Of a stretch of DNA of 21,000 bases, positions 13,877-20,549 are shown piece after piece; position 1 is the first letter of the stretch, and the number at the start of each line of letters is the position of its first letter. The stretch is from a virus, in IMG/VR virus record IMGVR_UViG_3300036791_000842, positions 1 through 21,000 of that record; one strand, 5' to 3'. Below the pieces are notes generated by a model, which saw nothing but the letters and a program-made list of their open reading frames with translations, was not told the origin of the DNA and ran no database searches. Both the position numbers and the translations under genes were made by a program.

Positions 13877-13966
13877 TCACCCGTACGTGGCGTGGATCGC
13901 TAGTCCGATAAACAGGATGCAAACGACGACAATCATCAGCCAGTTTGGCGGCCGCGGGACGCGCAT
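13877..13966 (-). CDS. Tiny single-span membrane protein (29 aa)
   Basis: The ATG overlaps the terminase TGA as TGATG, with AAGGAAAG upstream. The product begins MRVPRPPNWLMIVVVCILFI and ends GLAIHATYG: a basic start, then one hydrophobic span of about 18 residues. It fills almost exactly the gap between the terminase and the zinc-ribbon gene. It could be a membrane peptide such as a lysis helper, by inference. Confidence 0.5.
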   Translation of the reverse strand: MRVPRPPNWLMIVVVCILFIGLAIHATYG

Positions 13967-15762
13967 CAAAATCTTTCCTTGCGCACCCGCGACTGACGAT
14001 TGATCGTCGCCATGTGTTGGGAGAACGCGAACGATAGTACCGTGCCCATGTCTTGCGGCGGCCGATCGCCCTTGACGCTATCCCAAGTGATGTTGCGTGC
14101 CACCAGCATCGGCCGCCGCCATTCAATCCAAGCGTGATGGGCGAGCACCAATGCCGACACGAGGTCGTCGTTTTCGCCGGTATCCGGCCCAGCTCCGATC
14201 CAGCCGTCGTCTTCGACGATGGATTGCATTTGCGCTATCAGTCGCGGTGATCTTATTTCCAGCCGCCGCAGCATCAGACTGTCGCGCAGCTCACTGTATA
14301 CCTGATGTTTGTTGTCGCTGTTTGCTTTCCACGCAATCACATTCCCGGCTCCACCTAGCGTGTCAGGCCGTTTGTAAAGAAACCAGCGAACCGCGCCAAT
14401 CATGTTTAGGATATTTTCTGTGCCGGGCTCCCCTTGCAGAATGCCCCGCTCAGCAAGCTGACGAAGATTTCGTACTTCAGGTAAAACCGCCGCGCCAACT
14501 CCTGTCACTTCCAGGTTGGCTATATGGTCTCGATATGCGCCGGCCAAGTGCGCTAGAACCCAGGCTAACTGATACGTTAACGGACGATTGGACTGGAATT
14601 CTGCAACCTGAACCACCTTATCAGCGTAGCAACGCAAAACCTGAATGGCGTGGTCATCACTTTCGCCGCCACCGCCACCGGATGGATCGACACCAATGAC
14701 GTAAGCCCCGGCGGCCTCGGGCGGCTCCCAGACTTTGAGCATGGCGTCATCGGGCTTGCTCACCTGTTCGATCCGGCTGGCCAGAAACTTGTCGTCGAAA
14801 GTGTATTTGTAGCCCTTGTAAGGCGGCCCGACCGGCGATAGCAGCTCGGCAATTTCCAAGGTCCGTGCCGCCGGAAAGAAGCCGGAGCCGGAAGCAATGA
14901 AGCACTCGCGCTCGTGCCACGGGTAGTGGCGTAGCATGTATTCTTCGTGCTTGAACTCGCTCTCCCGCCGCCACCATGCGATCTGCTCCGGCCTGACGAT
15001 GACCTTGTAGTTTTCCTTGACGTATTTGGCGCGGTTGATCTCGTCGACCGTCAGCCGGCCGTCCCAGTAGATTTTATAGTCGGGATCGTCTTTCTGGATG
15101 GCGTAAGTCGGGTTGGCCCAGAACCCGATGAAGATGAACCGCATATGGCGGTCCACCTTGGCTTGCTGACAATGGTTGTAGAACCAGTTGAAGCCCGATG
15201 CAATGCTTTCCCAAATATAGAGCCGGTTGGGGTTTTGCCGCGCCAGCGAGGCTTTCAGGCTTTCGACACCGGCCAGCGATTTCCACTGCGCGCACTCAGT
15301 GGCGTGCATCATGTTCAGAGCACGAGACGCACCAAGGTCCGGATTGCTCGCGGCGGCCATGAGATCAATAACGCTGCGGTTGGCGAACGCCATCCCGGTA
15401 CGGTTATTCTGAATGAGTTTGTGTTCGGGGGATCGCCACTCAGCCGGTAGCGTCTCCAGTAGGCTGCCGAAAATTCGTCTAAGGCGTTCCAGATTGTCGG
15501 TACGGTCAGCAATGATTGCTCCTTGCACGCCCGGATTAGCCAACGCCCAGAACAATTCTATTACGCTGCAGACCGTGGTGATAGCCACTTGCCGGCACTT
15601 AAGCACCACGAACTCGTGAACACCCTCGTTGAGCCCGCGCGCCACCGCGTCGATGACAATGCGCTGCGACGGCCACGGCTCGATCCTAGCTCGGCCAAGC
15701 TCTTTTGTATCTATTTCAACGCTGGTCAGGAGGTCGTAAATTCCCTGGCGGATGGTCGGCAT
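13966..15762 (-). CDS. terL: Terminase large subunit (598 aa)
   Basis: This is the ATP-driven DNA packaging motor with a C-terminal nuclease. ATG 15762 is chosen because GGAGAG lies a few bases upstream. An ATG ten codons earlier has no site. The ATPase has a Walker A-like KCRQVAITT (residues 55-63, Ala where the family usually has Gly), followed by a Walker B-like LNMMHATE (149-156). The nuclease has VIGVDPSGGGGG with D359, LEVTG with E418, and ENDDLVSALVLA with D532/D533, giving the expected acidic triad. Length and order are normal. It overlaps the upstream gene by 47 bases and its stop overlaps the tiny membrane frame. Confidence 0.95.
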   Translation of the reverse strand: MPTIRQGIYDLLTSVEIDTKELGRARIEPWPSQRIVIDAVARGLNEGVHEFVVLKCRQVAITTVCSVIELFWALANPGVQGAIIADRTDNLERLRRIFGSLLETLPAEWRSPEHKLIQNNRTGMAFANRSVIDLMAAASNPDLGASRALNMMHATECAQWKSLAGVESLKASLARQNPNRLYIWESIASGFNWFYNHCQQAKVDRHMRFIFIGFWANPTYAIQKDDPDYKIYWDGRLTVDEINRAKYVKENYKVIVRPEQIAWWRRESEFKHEEYMLRHYPWHERECFIASGSGFFPAARTLEIAELLSPVGPPYKGYKYTFDDKFLASRIEQVSKPDDAMLKVWEPPEAAGAYVIGVDPSGGGGGESDDHAIQVLRCYADKVVQVAEFQSNRPLTYQLAWVLAHLAGAYRDHIANLEVTGVGAAVLPEVRNLRQLAERGILQGEPGTENILNMIGAVRWFLYKRPDTLGGAGNVIAWKANSDNKHQVYSELRDSLMLRRLEIRSPRLIAQMQSIVEDDGWIGAGPDTGENDDLVSALVLAHHAWIEWRRPMLVARNITWDSVKGDRPPQDMGTVLSFAFSQHMATINRQSRVRKERF

Positions 15763-16018
15763 GGTGCTCTCCGGGGCGCGGGAAGATACCATAACCGTCG
15801 CCGTCGCGGCGATGCCAGCGGCCGGACATAAAGCGCTGCGCGAACGCGGTAGCGGCTGGGGCGCTGCGCATCAGGGCGGCCAGTCGCTGGTCGACGATAG
15901 TCTCGATCGATCGGAGCAGTTCGGGATTGGGTTTGAGTTCGAGTTTGAGTTCGGGTTTGAGTTCGGATTTGGGTTTGGGTTTGGGTTTGGGTTTGGGTTT
16001 GGGTTTGAGCTTGGACAT
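15716..16018 (-). CDS. Lys-Pro repeat protein upstream of terminase (100 aa)
   Basis: ATG 16018 has GGGGGA upstream. The N-terminus is MSKLKPKPKPKPKPK and continues as degenerate Lys-Pro / Glu-Leu-Lys units to about residue 33, then an ordered part (LLRSIETIVDQRLAALMRSA, AFAQRFMSGRWHRRDGDG) and a Pro/His-rich end. The repeat DNA is a hexanucleotide run. It sits where a small terminase subunit is often found, but nothing seen here identifies it as one. The end overlaps the terminase by 47 bases. Confidence 0.6.
   Translation of the reverse strand: MSKLKPKPKPKPKPKPKSELKPELKLELKPNPELLRSIETIVDQRLAALMRSAPAATAFAQRFMSGRWHRRDGDGYGIFPRPGEHHADHPPGNLRPPDQR
15971..16006. repeat. Six tandem GGGTTT units
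   Basis: On the plus strand GGGTTT is repeated six times without interruption. Degenerate copies extend leftwards to about 15926. It encodes the Lys-Pro run on the minus strand. The G-rich strand could form a G-quadruplex, since it has more than four GGG tracts with three-base loops. Confidence 0.95.
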
Positions 16019-17759: not shown

Positions 17760-17907
17760 TTGGGGTTTCCAGTGTATCGGGTGGACGTAGTGGCTTTATT
17801 TTGCGCCGTACATGGTCAAAGAATTCACGGCGTATCCATGCGTCGGCTGTCTTGTGGTTTTTGAACGGGCCGTAGATTTCGTGGTTTACTTCAACGATGC
17901 ACCACAT
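17737..17907 (-). CDS. Hypothetical protein (56 aa)
   Basis: It starts MWCIVEVNHEIYGPFKNHKT with AAGGAGAGCC upstream. A longer open frame upstream lacks a site. It looks like a compact alpha/beta fold (YGPFKNHKTADAWIRREFF) with a polar tail. It is the first gene downstream of the palindromic promoter-like site at 18023-18056, leaving a leader of about 115 bases. Confidence 0.65.
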   Translation of the reverse strand: MWCIVEVNHEIYGPFKNHKTADAWIRREFFDHVRRKIKPLRPPDTLETPNAQDQTH

Positions 17908-18022
17908 TTTGGCTCTCCTTGACTTTAAGTCCGTGGGTTGACATCCTTGAATGAGCGGCCTTTCCAACCGTCTCACAGAATGCCTTTCGGCTCGGACGCC
18001 CACGGTCACCCGATAGGTGTTA
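17908..18022 (-). other. Leader region
   Basis: 115 bases between the promoter-like palindrome and the first small gene. They hold the ribosome-binding site AAGGAGAG near 17915. No convincing gene is seen, only a weak 16-codon frame. Confidence 0.4.
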
Positions 18023-18056
18023 AAGATAATCCCTTGACAATCGCTGTCAAGGGATT
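18023..18056 (-). promoter_or_regulatory. Palindromic promoter/terminator-like site
   Basis: A 12-bp perfect stem (AATCCCTTGACA / TGTCAAGGGATT, 18028-18039 and 18045-18056) has a five-base loop. On the minus strand TTGACA (18050-18045) is followed after 16 bases by TATCTT (18028-18023), a plausible sigma70 promoter for the genes to the left. On the plus strand the stem is followed by TTTC after ATT, as in an intrinsic terminator. It begins three bases after the stop codon of the previous gene, so it may terminate one unit and start the next. Confidence 0.55.
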
Positions 18057-18059
18057 TTT

Positions 18060-18380
18060 CTATTGAAACAGCGCCATGAGTTCCGCATAGCGCGGGTTAG
18101 GATCGTGTGCGGTTTCGTGCTCATACTTCATATCGCCGCGAAAGATTGAAACCATGCCGTGACCGTGATCACGGGCGACATAGGTTCGCCCATCATCACC
18201 ATCGACGATCCGCATACGCCGCGCGAATGTGAGCTTCATTGGCGCGCCGGTCGTCACTCGCACCGCACGCTCGCCGCGCTTGGCGTCGATCTCAATGTGG
18301 AACGTGGCCTCGACGCGACGGGAGCCGCTAGGCCAATCCGCTATCTTCGCCGCCATGCGCGGGTTGCTATACTGGGTCAT
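18060..18380 (-). CDS. Hypothetical protein (106 aa)
   Basis: The start is ATG 18380 (MTQYSNPRMAAKIADWPSGS), 14 bases inside the end of the upstream gene. A longer frame from 18428 lies within that gene. The body is beta-like (VEATFHIEIDAKRGERAVRV, TFARRMRIVDGDDGRTYVAR) and ends NPRYAELMALFQ. There is no strong binding site, so translation is probably coupled. No family is recognised. Confidence 0.65.
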   Translation of the reverse strand: MTQYSNPRMAAKIADWPSGSRRVEATFHIEIDAKRGERAVRVTTGAPMKLTFARRMRIVDGDDGRTYVARDHGHGMVSIFRGDMKYEHETAHDPNPRYAELMALFQ

Positions 18381-18576
18381 GGTCGTACACCAAAAAGCGG
18401 TCAACGTAAGCGCGGATGCTGGCCGCAAGCGATGCGTCGTCTACGCCTTCGCTGATCTTGATGCGGCCAAAGTTGAACACTTTTGAAATGTCCATGATGT
18501 TAATCGGGACACCCGAACAACTGGCGCGGAAGGCGTTTTCGATGCGTCGGTCGATTAGCTTTTTACTGTTTGACAT
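18367..18576 (-). CDS. Hypothetical protein (69 aa)
   Basis: It starts MSNSKKLIDRRIENAFRASC with CGAGGAGAGCAAA upstream. The longer frame to 18666 would cross the hairpin element and is not used. Features are RIENAFRASCSGVPINIMDI (a possible helix and turn), FNFGRIKISEGV and a final helix (AASIRAYVDRFLV). It is preceded by hairpin copy 1. Confidence 0.7.
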   Translation of the reverse strand: MSNSKKLIDRRIENAFRASCSGVPINIMDISKVFNFGRIKISEGVDDASLAASIRAYVDRFLVYDHDPV

Positions 18577-18602: not shown

Positions 18603-18652
18603 ATGAACGCGGCAAAACGGCGAGTGTTTGCTCGCCGCTTCGCTCTCGTTCA
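18603..18652 (-). repeat. Stop-anchored hairpin element, copy 1
   Basis: Read on the minus strand, the element begins on the stop TGA of the 48-residue gene. It has the 5' arm TGAACGAGAGCGAAGC, a stem CGGCGAG / CTCGCCG and the 3' arm GTTTTGCCGCGTTCAT, then leads through ACGCGAAA to the next ribosome-binding site. The outer ends (TGAACG / CGTTCA) also pair. The stem differs from copies 2, 4 and 5 by matched changes on both arms. Confidence 0.9.
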
Positions 18653-18796
18653 ACGACCGCTGTCACATCGTTGAATACAGCCTTCGCCAGAACGGCATTC
18701 GGTCCAACAACATTTGGTGCCGTTGCCGCACGCGAAAGCTTGCGGAACGTTTGCCAGCATGATTGCCAGTACGATAAGGCTAATTGCGGTTTTCAT
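18650..18796 (-). CDS. Secreted cysteine-rich peptide (48 aa)
   Basis: ATG 18796 follows AGGAGAGCAGCAAA. The first 22 residues, MKTAISLIVLAIMLANVPQA then FA, are a classic signal peptide with an AxA cut site. The mature part is about 26 residues (CGNGTKCCWTECRSGEGCIQ then RCDSGR) with six Cys (C23, C29, C30, C34, C40, C44), which could form three disulfides. A lipoprotein reading (cut before C23) is possible, but the lipobox is poor. The stop lies in hairpin copy 1 and the gene follows copy 2. Export to the periplasm is inferred; the function is unknown. Confidence 0.75.
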   Translation of the reverse strand: MKTAISLIVLAIMLANVPQAFACGNGTKCCWTECRSGEGCIQRCDSGR

Positions 18797-18824
18797 TTTG
18801 CTGCTCTCCTATTCGCGTTTCCAC

Positions 18825-18875
18825 ATGAACGCGGCAAAACGGGGCGCAACGCGCGCCCCGCTTCGCTCTCGTTCA
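18825..18875 (-). repeat. Stop-anchored hairpin element, copy 2
   Basis: Same arms as copy 1. The stem is CGGGGCGC / GCGCCCCG (8 bp) with a five-base loop. It starts on the TGA of the 58-residue gene, and its tail leads to the secreted peptide gene through ACGCGAAT. Confidence 0.9.
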
Positions 18876-19049
18876 CTGTGTCTGCGGTTCAAACACGCCT
18901 ACAAGGCGTTCACTGAATAGTAATCGTTCATCGTAATTGCGGATCACATAGAGCGGGTTGAATTGATTGAGATTGAGCACAAGCATTGTGTGACCATCGC
19001 GGTTCGCGGCGCGTTGTGCTTCCGCGAATATCTGTTCTTTGCGTGTCAT
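18873..19049 (-). CDS. Hypothetical protein (58 aa)
   Basis: It starts MTRKEQIFAEAQRAANRDGH with AGAGGAGAGCAAA upstream. A longer frame to 19169 would cross the hairpin element. It looks like an N-terminal helix followed by beta strands (TMLVLNLNQFNPLYVIRNYD) and ends VGVFEPQTQ. The stop is part of hairpin copy 2. No family is recognised. Confidence 0.7.
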   Translation of the reverse strand: MTRKEQIFAEAQRAANRDGHTMLVLNLNQFNPLYVIRNYDERLLFSERLVGVFEPQTQ

Positions 19050-19065
19050 TATTTGCTCTCCTCTG

Positions 19066-19114
19066 ATGAACGCGGCAAAACGGCGGAGCTGCCCCGCCGC
19101 TTCGCTCTCGTTCA
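19066..19114 (-). repeat. Stop-anchored hairpin element, copy 3
   Basis: It has the same arms and the stem CGGCGG / CCGCCG. It begins on the stop of the 43-residue gene. This copy lacks the ACGCGAAA spacer and runs straight into AGAGGAGAGC. Confidence 0.9.
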
Positions 19115-19243
19115 CACTCCGAACCAAAGTTCGACAGCGGCGCGCCACCATCTGCGATGGTAACGCCAACTAGTTGGACCGGTACTTTCTGCGACGAAGT
19201 ACAGGCCGCTGTCGTCATCTTGCATGATGCAGGGGTAACGCAT
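19112..19243 (-). CDS. Small Trp/Arg-rich protein (43 aa)
   Basis: ATG 19243 follows GAGGAGGGCAAACAAA. The product is MRYPCIMQDDDSGLYFVAES followed by TGPTSWRYHRRWWRAAVELW and FGV. It has five Trp, two Tyr and an aromatic/basic second half. Its stop is the TGA at the start of hairpin copy 3, the same arrangement as its neighbours, which supports it as a real gene. Confidence 0.65.
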   Translation of the reverse strand: MRYPCIMQDDDSGLYFVAESTGPTSWRYHRRWWRAAVELWFGV

Positions 19244-19274
19244 TTTGTTTGCCCTCCTCTTTTCGCGTCTCCAC

Positions 19275-19297
19275 ATGAACGCGGCTTTCGCCCAGGT
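19275..19297 (-). repeat. Degenerate hairpin element (3' half only)
   Basis: Only the tail GCCGCGTTCATGTGGAGACG is kept, followed by ACGCGAAA-like spacer and ribosome-binding site. A short GGGCGAAAGCC hairpin replaces the usual stem, and the element does not begin on the upstream stop (TAA). Confidence 0.6.
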
Positions 19298-19299
19298 TG

Positions 19300-19566
19300 T
19301 TATGATTGCGGCGCTTTCCGCAACATACGTGTAACCGGGCTATCATGGGCCCCGATATATTGTGGCTTAATTTTCAAGGCGCGGTGATTGCGTACAAATG
19401 GCTTGGCGTGAGCGCGATAGACTTCAACGCCGCCCTTGTCGTCTGCATCGACAATATCGAGCACCACAAGCCCGCTATCGCGATTGACAAACAAGGCAAC
19501 AACACGGCCATCGTCTAGCGGGACGTTGTGGTGGACGATACGCTCGATGTATTCCTCGGTTTTCAT
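19300..19566 (-). CDS. Hypothetical protein (88 aa)
   Basis: It starts MKTEEYIERIVHHNVPLDDG with GTCGGAGAGCAAT upstream. It is beta-rich in the middle (RVVALFVNRDSGLVVLDIVD) and basic at the end (NHRALKIKPQYIGAHDSPVT). Its leader holds an 18-bp perfect palindrome. The function is unknown. Confidence 0.7.
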   Translation of the reverse strand: MKTEEYIERIVHHNVPLDDGRVVALFVNRDSGLVVLDIVDADDKGGVEVYRAHAKPFVRNHRALKIKPQYIGAHDSPVTRMLRKAPQS

Positions 19567-19577
19567 ATTGCTCTCCG

Positions 19578-19595
19578 ACGCCTCCTAGGAGGCGT
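19578..19595. other. 18-bp perfect palindrome before a start codon
   Basis: ACGCCTCCTAGGAGGCGT is its own reverse complement. It lies six bases after the preceding stop codon and contains AGGAGG, with a second site (GGAGAG) nearer the ATG. It may be an operator, or a hairpin that affects the next gene's translation. Confidence 0.6.
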
Positions 19596-19601
19596 TTCGC
19601 C

Positions 19602-19784
19602 TTAGAATTCGTAGGATCGACCATCTTTGGAAAGACGAGCAACGCACACGTGCATTTCGTCGACCTCGTCCGGTTGATAGTTCGCCTGAATAAATTCGTG
19701 TGCTTTGGTCAATGTCGGGAATAAGCCTACGTCCTGCTCGCCTTCATAACCGGCGAATTCCACAACGATGTATTGCTTTGCCAT
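19602..19784 (-). CDS. Hypothetical protein (60 aa)
   Basis: MAKQYIVVEFAGYEGEQDVG starts after AAGGACG. It is a small alpha/beta-type protein (FPTLTKAHEFIQANYQPDEV, DEMHVCVARLSKDGRSYEF). The frame stays open upstream to the hairpin tail without any usual start codon (see findings), so the present gene could be the surviving part of a longer one. Confidence 0.65.
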   Translation of the reverse strand: MAKQYIVVEFAGYEGEQDVGLFPTLTKAHEFIQANYQPDEVDEMHVCVARLSKDGRSYEF

Positions 19785-19897
19785 TGTCGTCGTCCTTTTG
19801 GTGGTTAGTAGGGGTAGTTTTGAAAAGTGTTTAATGCCGTCGCGAAAACCGTTCGCAGTGGCAATGACTTCGTTTTTAATGCGAGTTTGTTCGCGTC
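19785..19897 (-). pseudogene. Possible decayed gene start between hairpin copy 4 and the next gene
   Basis: After copy 4 the spacer begins ACGCGAA as in the other cassettes, but the expected ribosome-binding site and ATG are replaced by a sequence ending in ATT. The frame from there reads IKNEVIATANGFRDGIKHFS and continues KLPLLTTKRTTT straight into the next protein. No ATG, GTG or TTG is present in it. Confidence 0.3.
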
Positions 19898-19951
19898 ATG
19901 AACGCGGCAAAACGGGGCGATGCACGGCGCGCCCCGCTTCACTCTCGTTCA
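19898..19951 (-). repeat. Stop-anchored hairpin element, copy 4
   Basis: It has the same arms (one base different in the 5' arm) and the stem CGGGGCG / CGCCCCG with a longer loop. It begins on the stop of the 80-residue gene. Confidence 0.9.
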
Positions 19952-20191
19952 TTCGTGGGATAGACGCGGCATGGCGCAAATCGCAGACATGCGTTCAAGT
20001 CGCAATGATACCAAGGCGAGAGTGCCAGCGTAAAAACATGGAAGGCCAGTTTTGTCTTGCGGGTAGACCCACCATGAACCTTTATCGCGGCGCGGGCCGT
20101 CTTTGCGAACGCGGTAGCGATTGCCGTTTTTGTCCCACGCCACATATTCGCCGTGTCGAAAACCACTTCTCTCTATGTTGTGGTAATTCAT
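19949..20191 (-). CDS. Hypothetical protein (80 aa)
   Basis: It starts MNYHNIERSGFRHGEYVAWD with CGAGGAGGGCAAACAA upstream. A longer frame to 20341 would cross hairpin copy 5. A beta-rich core (NGNRYRVRKDGPRRDKGSWW) and aromatic residues suggest a small barrel. It ends SAICAMPRLSHE. No family is recognised. Confidence 0.7.
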   Translation of the reverse strand: MNYHNIERSGFRHGEYVAWDKNGNRYRVRKDGPRRDKGSWWVYPQDKTGLPCFYAGTLALVSLRLERMSAICAMPRLSHE

Positions 20192-20216
20192 TTGTTTGCC
20201 CTCCTCGTTTCGCGTG

Positions 20217-20270
20217 ATGAACGCGGCAAAACGGGGCGACGCACGGCGCGCCCCGCTTCGCTTTCGTTCA
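20217..20270 (-). repeat. Stop-anchored hairpin element, copy 5
   Basis: It has the same arms and the stem CGGGGCG / CGCCCCG. It begins on the stop of the 93-residue gene and leads via ACGCGAAA to the next binding site. Confidence 0.9.
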
Positions 20271-20549
20271 CTTTGCTCGCACGTTGTCGGGTGCAATTCG
20301 CGTCGCGTAGTCATACGCGGCGGAATAGTTGTCGCCTTCATTTGAGTGGACTAGGCTTTCGATCTTGTTGACAATCAGGATCACAGCGGCATCGCGATAG
20401 CTAAAATCCGTGCCGCCTTCGTTTGCTGCCTCATCTGTTGCTCGCACTAACTCACGGGCGATGGCGCGAAGGTTACATGCGTCTTGCAAGTCAATCGCGA
20501 CCTGAAAACGCGACCGCGATTTGTCGCGGCAATTGCAGTACGCATTCAT
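20268..20549 (-). CDS. Hypothetical helical protein (93 aa)
   Basis: It starts MNAYCNCRDKSRSRFQVAID with ATAGGAGAGCAACC upstream. A frame opening earlier lies inside the preceding gene. It is mainly helical (LQDACNLRAIARELVRATDE, RDAAVILIVNKIESLVHSNE) and ends DNVRAK. The preceding gene's TAG overlaps its ribosome-binding site. No family is recognised. Confidence 0.7.
   Translation of the reverse strand: MNAYCNCRDKSRSRFQVAIDLQDACNLRAIARELVRATDEAANEGGTDFSYRDAAVILIVNKIESLVHSNEGDNYSAAYDYATRIAPDNVRAK

Follow-up and report, generated by a model that had tools for sequence, protein, structure and literature searches.

The window, a 21,000-nt stretch of an uncultured virus genome (IMG/VR record IMGVR_UViG_3300036791_000842, positions 1 to 21,000), carries on its minus strand five copies of a repeated element of ∼50 nt (49–54 nt), each of which starts at the in-frame TGA stop codon of a small gene and runs in the order TGAACGAGAGCGAAGC, a variable GC stem-loop, CGTTTTGCCGCGTTCAT. 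A short leader containing AGGAGAGCAAA follows, then the ATG of the next gene, whose ribosome site lies close 3′ of the element. Read along the minus strand, copy 1 (20217..20270), a TGA with a two-tier hairpin, ends a 93-aa ORF (20268..20549); copy 2 (19898..19951) ends the 80-aa ORF between copies 1 and 2 (19949..20191) and stands ∼114 nt before the next start; copy 3 (19066..19114) ends a 43-aa ORF (19112..19243); copy 4 (18825..18875) ends the 58-aa ORF between copies 3 and 4 (18873..19049); and copy 5 (18603..18652) ends the 48-aa ORF between copies 4 and 5 (18650..18796). A 69-aa ORF (18367..18576) comes after copy 5, and the gene for the terminase large subunit (13966..15792), on the same strand, is the landmark downstream of the elements. 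All five copies described in an earlier note on this DNA are thus present, and in 5/5 the first three bases of the element are, as it had claimed, the stop codon of an ORF supported by a ribosome binding site (RBS). Each arm of the element matches the window five times, as compared to 0.28–0.42 matches expected by chance (0/100 shuffles), the 5′ arm with one mismatch in 2/5 copies. The sixth, degenerate copy of that note is a remnant on the minus strand (19246..19285) that retains the 3′ half alone (GCCGCGTTCATGTGGAGACGCGAAA at ∼19260–19285; 3′ arm GCCGCGTTCAT) together with the leader, and the ORF preceding it stops with TAA rather than TGA.

Every copy in the window folds into a single hairpin (−32.6 to −38.4 kcal/mol, z-score −5.2 to −6.8), and the outer ends pair as part of it, as had been proposed. 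In this fold, which we call type 1, an outer stem (UGAACG/CGUUCA) is followed by a small mismatch zone and by an inner stem (GCGAAGC/GUUUUGC) that runs on into the variable stem. No Rfam family gives a gathering match in the window, the best being a weak match at E 2.4. No isolate is close to the window at the DNA level, and the closest terminases that the phage collection offers share ∼35% identity with its own; in IMG/VR, six further contigs (L010, L015, L017, L019, L026, and L033) carry the same stop-hairpin-RBS linkers, with terminases 85–98% and capsid proteins 90–98% identical to those of the window. The resulting set of 22 copies from seven contigs, window included, is confined to one small-gene zone upstream of the terminase, with up to five copies inside 1.7 kb in one lineage. 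An RBS-supported ORF stops exactly at the element TGA in 15 of the 22; among the other seven, two (both in L026) meet an in-frame stop 3 or 6 nt ahead of the TGA, and in five the frame stays open over 27–88 codons up to it. One-tier remnants of the upper stem, which look decayed or simplified, also lie upstream of type-1 copies (L015 561–582 and L017 13325–13364), at or just past the stop of a 65–68-aa gene. When 84,980 species genomes were scanned for the pattern of the arms, 45 matches came back that we judged to be chance, none with the TGAACG outer stem adjoining, and many exact 16-mer matches in IMG/VR sit within unrelated coding genes.

The 22-copy alignment bears out the earlier claim of compensatory stem changes that keep the pairing. 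Across it, 96.6% of cells are paired, five pairs are altered on both sides, and 28 cells are double-changed as compared to 10.5 in column shuffles, none of 500 shuffles reaching 28; slid-register controls gave 1–5 such cells. Covariation therefore supports selection on the fold.

We then took as a sister set 80 terminase relatives (77–98% identical), calling genes outside the window by a simple ribosome-site rule. In the sister phages, the type-1 covariance model retrieves no full-length copy and a single weak, partial match (in L131), so that the hairpins found there are, as judged by sequence, not simply diverged type-1 copies. Simple repeat counting reveals a second linker, a stop codon (TGA, TAG, or TAA) followed by CTTGCACCGCAAG..GGGCATGT, in L096, L102, and L104–L107, and folding at every predicted stop of the 80 relatives reveals many more stop-anchored hairpins. 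Upstream of the terminase, the share of 54-nt segments folding below −24 kcal/mol climbs from ∼3% to 21% right at the stop codon, whereas for late genes it stays at 1%. A lax cut-off (−18 kcal/mol) gave a background of ∼11%, and a strict criterion was used instead; by this, hairpins occur at 74/470 small-gene-zone stops, versus 2/501 late-gene stops, 4/470 shuffles, and 53/2500 and 63/2500 other stop triplets on either strand, counts that are not independent because the hairpins of this phage cluster share descent. The 69 unique strict hairpins (median 19 bp, with small internal loops) fall into ∼31 sequence clusters, some of which are probably chance. A common build recurs among them: the stop codon, a lower stem of 5–7 bp, an A opposite a G, 1–4 bp, a second small mismatch (often C–U), an upper stem of 8–14 bp, and a loop of 3–6 nt. 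The one-by-one mismatch is A/G twelve times and G/A once among cluster representatives, as raw counts with no formal background. Linkers and next genes share a strand, the hairpin ending a median of 26 nt (interquartile range 23–33) before the next start.

The architecture can be followed at a single locus: of the 22 relatives with an orthologous DUF932 gene (PF06067), most have a hairpin anchored at its stop, the hairpin sequences being unrelated. Of two remote relatives, one (MW202825, terminase 35% identical) likewise shows a comparable hairpin anchored at the stop of a small gene. In the open-access literature that we searched, we found no precedent for intergenic stop-anchored phage hairpins. 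Top-strand folding of the hairpins seemed stronger than bottom-strand folding (45 versus 24), but they had been selected by top-strand folding; in the unselected profile the complementary strands fold nearly equally (21% versus 19% below −24 kcal/mol at the stop), and a role at the DNA level may for this reason exist as well. Other repeats occur upstream of the terminase in these relatives: a recurrent (A)ACCGCCGGGC..GCCCGGCGGTT hairpin with a ribosome-site-like GAGGAGAGCAA in its loop (ORF starts L092 4740, L093 908, L095 3174, L098 976, and L099 625); long arrays of GGCNNGGC-type repeats (L121 3293–6138 and L142 743–1967); and a dense short-repeat array of AAGCGAGCCA and AACATCA (L127 3285–4618, L128 433–1766, and L132 3014–4085).

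Phage T7 is the textbook case of an early message chopped by RNase III, and we folded its genome by the same procedure as a yardstick. Hairpins with internal loops emerge between genes 0.4/0.5 (21 bp, starting at −3 from the stop and ending 16 nt short of the next start), 0.7/1 (starting at +5 from the stop and ending 23 nt before the next start, 17 bp), 1.2/1.3 (+17 and 17 nt, 19 bp), and 4.5/4.7 (+3 and 23 nt, 20 bp), so that three of the four start between −3 and +5 nt from the stop; a hairpin also lies between 18/18.5, and the longer 1/1.1 gap holds R1.1. Those other than R1.1 we take to be named RNase III sites (R0.5, R1, R1.3, R4.7, and others). The linkers resemble these sites in being same-strand intergenic two-tier hairpins with a small internal loop (∼17–23 bp in T7), and in their placement, several T7 sites beginning at most 5 nt from the upstream stop and ending 16–23 nt before the next start. 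They differ in that the T7 sites have a recognizable common sequence (AAGGTC..GGCCTT) whereas here each lineage has its own, and in the mismatches, an A opposite a G here as compared to the larger A–A/UC–UAU loops of R1.1. The specificity of RNase III is not readable from sequence, and any long hairpin is a possible substrate.

The cluster hairpins match those of T7 in length and spacing as well as in having two tiers, and RNase III-type processing is thus the best single explanation; we give about even odds (roughly 0.5) to the reading that the linkers are processing and insulation signals of the T7 type in a polycistronic phage message. Of the two roles the earlier note had offered, termination or processing, it is processing that fits the geometry best, and termination fits poorly. 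With a median gap of 26 nt, the downstream genes would have to be transcribed either by read-through of the hairpin or from promoters within the gene before it. Between the stop codon and a point just short of the next ribosome site, the nascent message would fold into the ∼19-bp hairpin with mismatches between its tiers; a double-strand-specific RNase, most simply that of the host, RNase III, would bind and cut near the mismatches. Cutting would leave short messages that carry a hairpin at their 3′ end and would free the ribosome site of the next gene. If structure alone matters, the sequence could drift by compensatory change and come to differ from lineage to lineage, and the same linker at many gene ends of one genome would supply homology for the swapping of small genes. 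A search for a T7-type RNA polymerase found none, though the control of that search was also silent.

A less probable alternative is that the hairpins act uncut, as mRNA stabilizers or translation insulators that block 3′–5′ decay of the upstream cistron and keep ribosomes terminating at the stop from entering the next ribosome site. The exact anchoring at the stop codon, which lies within the lower stem, and the fixed spacing to the next ribosome site are as expected of such a device, for which stability suffices and no sequence is required. It leaves unexplained both the conserved mismatches between the tiers and the close likeness to the T7 processing sites.

We regard as more doubtful still that the hairpins are intrinsic transcription terminators, one after each gene. 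Type-1 copies do have a GC stem followed by GTTTTG, but in these the UUUU forms part of the inner-stem pairing, and 3/22 copies read GCUUUG, with UUU only; the sister types are without a U-tract, at least four T occur within 8 nt after the stem as folded in 1/73 strict cluster hairpins, and a terminator scan missed these sites. Nor is there space for a promoter before the next gene, and since nearly all linkers also lack a U-tract directly after the GC stem, termination is unlikely, and as a general reading we rejected it. At the end of the DUF932 gene, three relatives (L108, L124, and L126) have hairpins whose stem leads into a run of at least six T, and on this ground at least some of these sites terminate. 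The intrinsic terminator of L126 (GCCGCGCGGC..GCCGCGCGGCTTTTTT) is, like the linkers, a GC hairpin after a stop codon; terminators of its type have a T-run and are without a lower tier at the stop, whereas the linkers have the lower tier and are without the T-run.

Gene content between linkers, compared across relatives, is mosaic: orthologues keep their linker as neighbors differ. The 48-aa gene has a linker at its end in the window, L015, and L017, with another next gene in each of the three; the 69-aa gene has a linker upstream in both the window and L010 (91% identical homologue), after differing preceding genes; and the 93-aa gene likewise ends in an element both in the window and in L015 (91% identical homologue), though the hairpin and the following gene differ between the two. 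Homology blocks end in linkers in 20/50 cases as compared to 8.9 expected, an excess that is partly built in, given that linkers match everywhere. Such observations, with the linker being common to unrelated ORFans and half an element left at 19246–19285, could be taken to mean that the linker is mainly an exchange site, moving gene-plus-hairpin cassettes by homologous recombination or by a recombinase that reads structure; we consider this improbable. Tyrosine recombinases (PF00589) were found in 0/15 records, which may be incomplete, with the control at 14/14; compensatory change and lineage-specific sequences favor a fold-dependent role over plain homology; and the arms look homogenized within a genome (TGAGCG in 3/3 L033 copies), as for copies made inside it and not imported. 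Integron attC sites, likewise hairpins, vary in sequence but keep their fold; they stand at the 3′ end of ORFan cassettes, are recognized by a tyrosine recombinase, and bear R and L core boxes. The linkers share the fold, the variability, and the position, but have no core sequence common across types and include the ribosome site of the next gene. Because the homology-end excess is partly built in and no tyrosine recombinase was found, the cassette exchange suggested in the earlier note fits as a by-product only, a plausible consequence of the linker.

A combined form is about as speculative: the linker would be a cassette boundary defined by its fold, across which genes are gained and lost from stop to stop, with a phage or host factor reading the two-tier shape (the A–G mismatch above the 5–7-bp lower stem, not the sequence) both for message processing and to guide exchange. 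Selfish palindromic repeats, REP- or MITE-like, that have spread between genes are very unlikely: the inverted repeats at the ends (TGAACG/CGTTCA) and the presence of several copies in a genome would suit them, but the elements keep a single orientation, always sit at an in-frame stop, are restricted to one zone, and have counterparts of the same fold and unrelated sequence in sister lineages.

The comparison that had been drawn with the start-associated repeats of mycobacteriophages is a loose one. In Cluster K mycobacteriophages, the SAS is a conserved 13-bp motif 3–7 bp from the start codon, and the ESAS repeats at start sites share a conserved 17-bp sequence among the copies of one genome (PMC3203893). 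Common to both systems are repeated inverted repeats in the gaps before a subset of small non-structural genes. The linkers, unlike ESAS, begin exactly at the stop codon, conserve a fold, and vary in sequence by lineage; their leader reads ACGCGAA..AGGAGAGCAAA, not GGGATAGGAGCCC, and the element ends a median of 26 nt before the start.

If RNase III-type processing is the right reading, a wide group of uncultured phages, with terminases far from that of any isolate, would seemingly use the punctuation of T7 with independent sequences, anchored at stop codons and with shape alone conserved. Such a pattern points to a reusable mark for cutting and insulating between swappable genes, and would make the linkers a concrete case in which a regulatory element may also fix where phage gene mosaics break. 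The linkers also offer a large natural covariation set for the requirements of such hairpins, and a route to processing sites from sequence alone.

A second structured RNA of ∼100 nt lies just upstream of a small gene in the window (17905–18013, minus strand) and at L010:2535–2655, L019:7785–7900 (minus strand), L089:3100–3246, L102:2385–2545, and L105:3430–3590. It has two helices and the core GUCYGAGCCGAAAGG..CAAG..CCG, with 13/27 predicted pairs double-changed in the six sequences; it has no Rfam match in the window, and could be a new cis-regulatory RNA. Adjoining it in the window (18028–18056, plus strand) is a strong inverted repeat, AT-rich and terminator-like (AATCCCTTGACA..TGTCAAGGGATT, followed by TTTT), and a similar one occurs in L089 near 3105.
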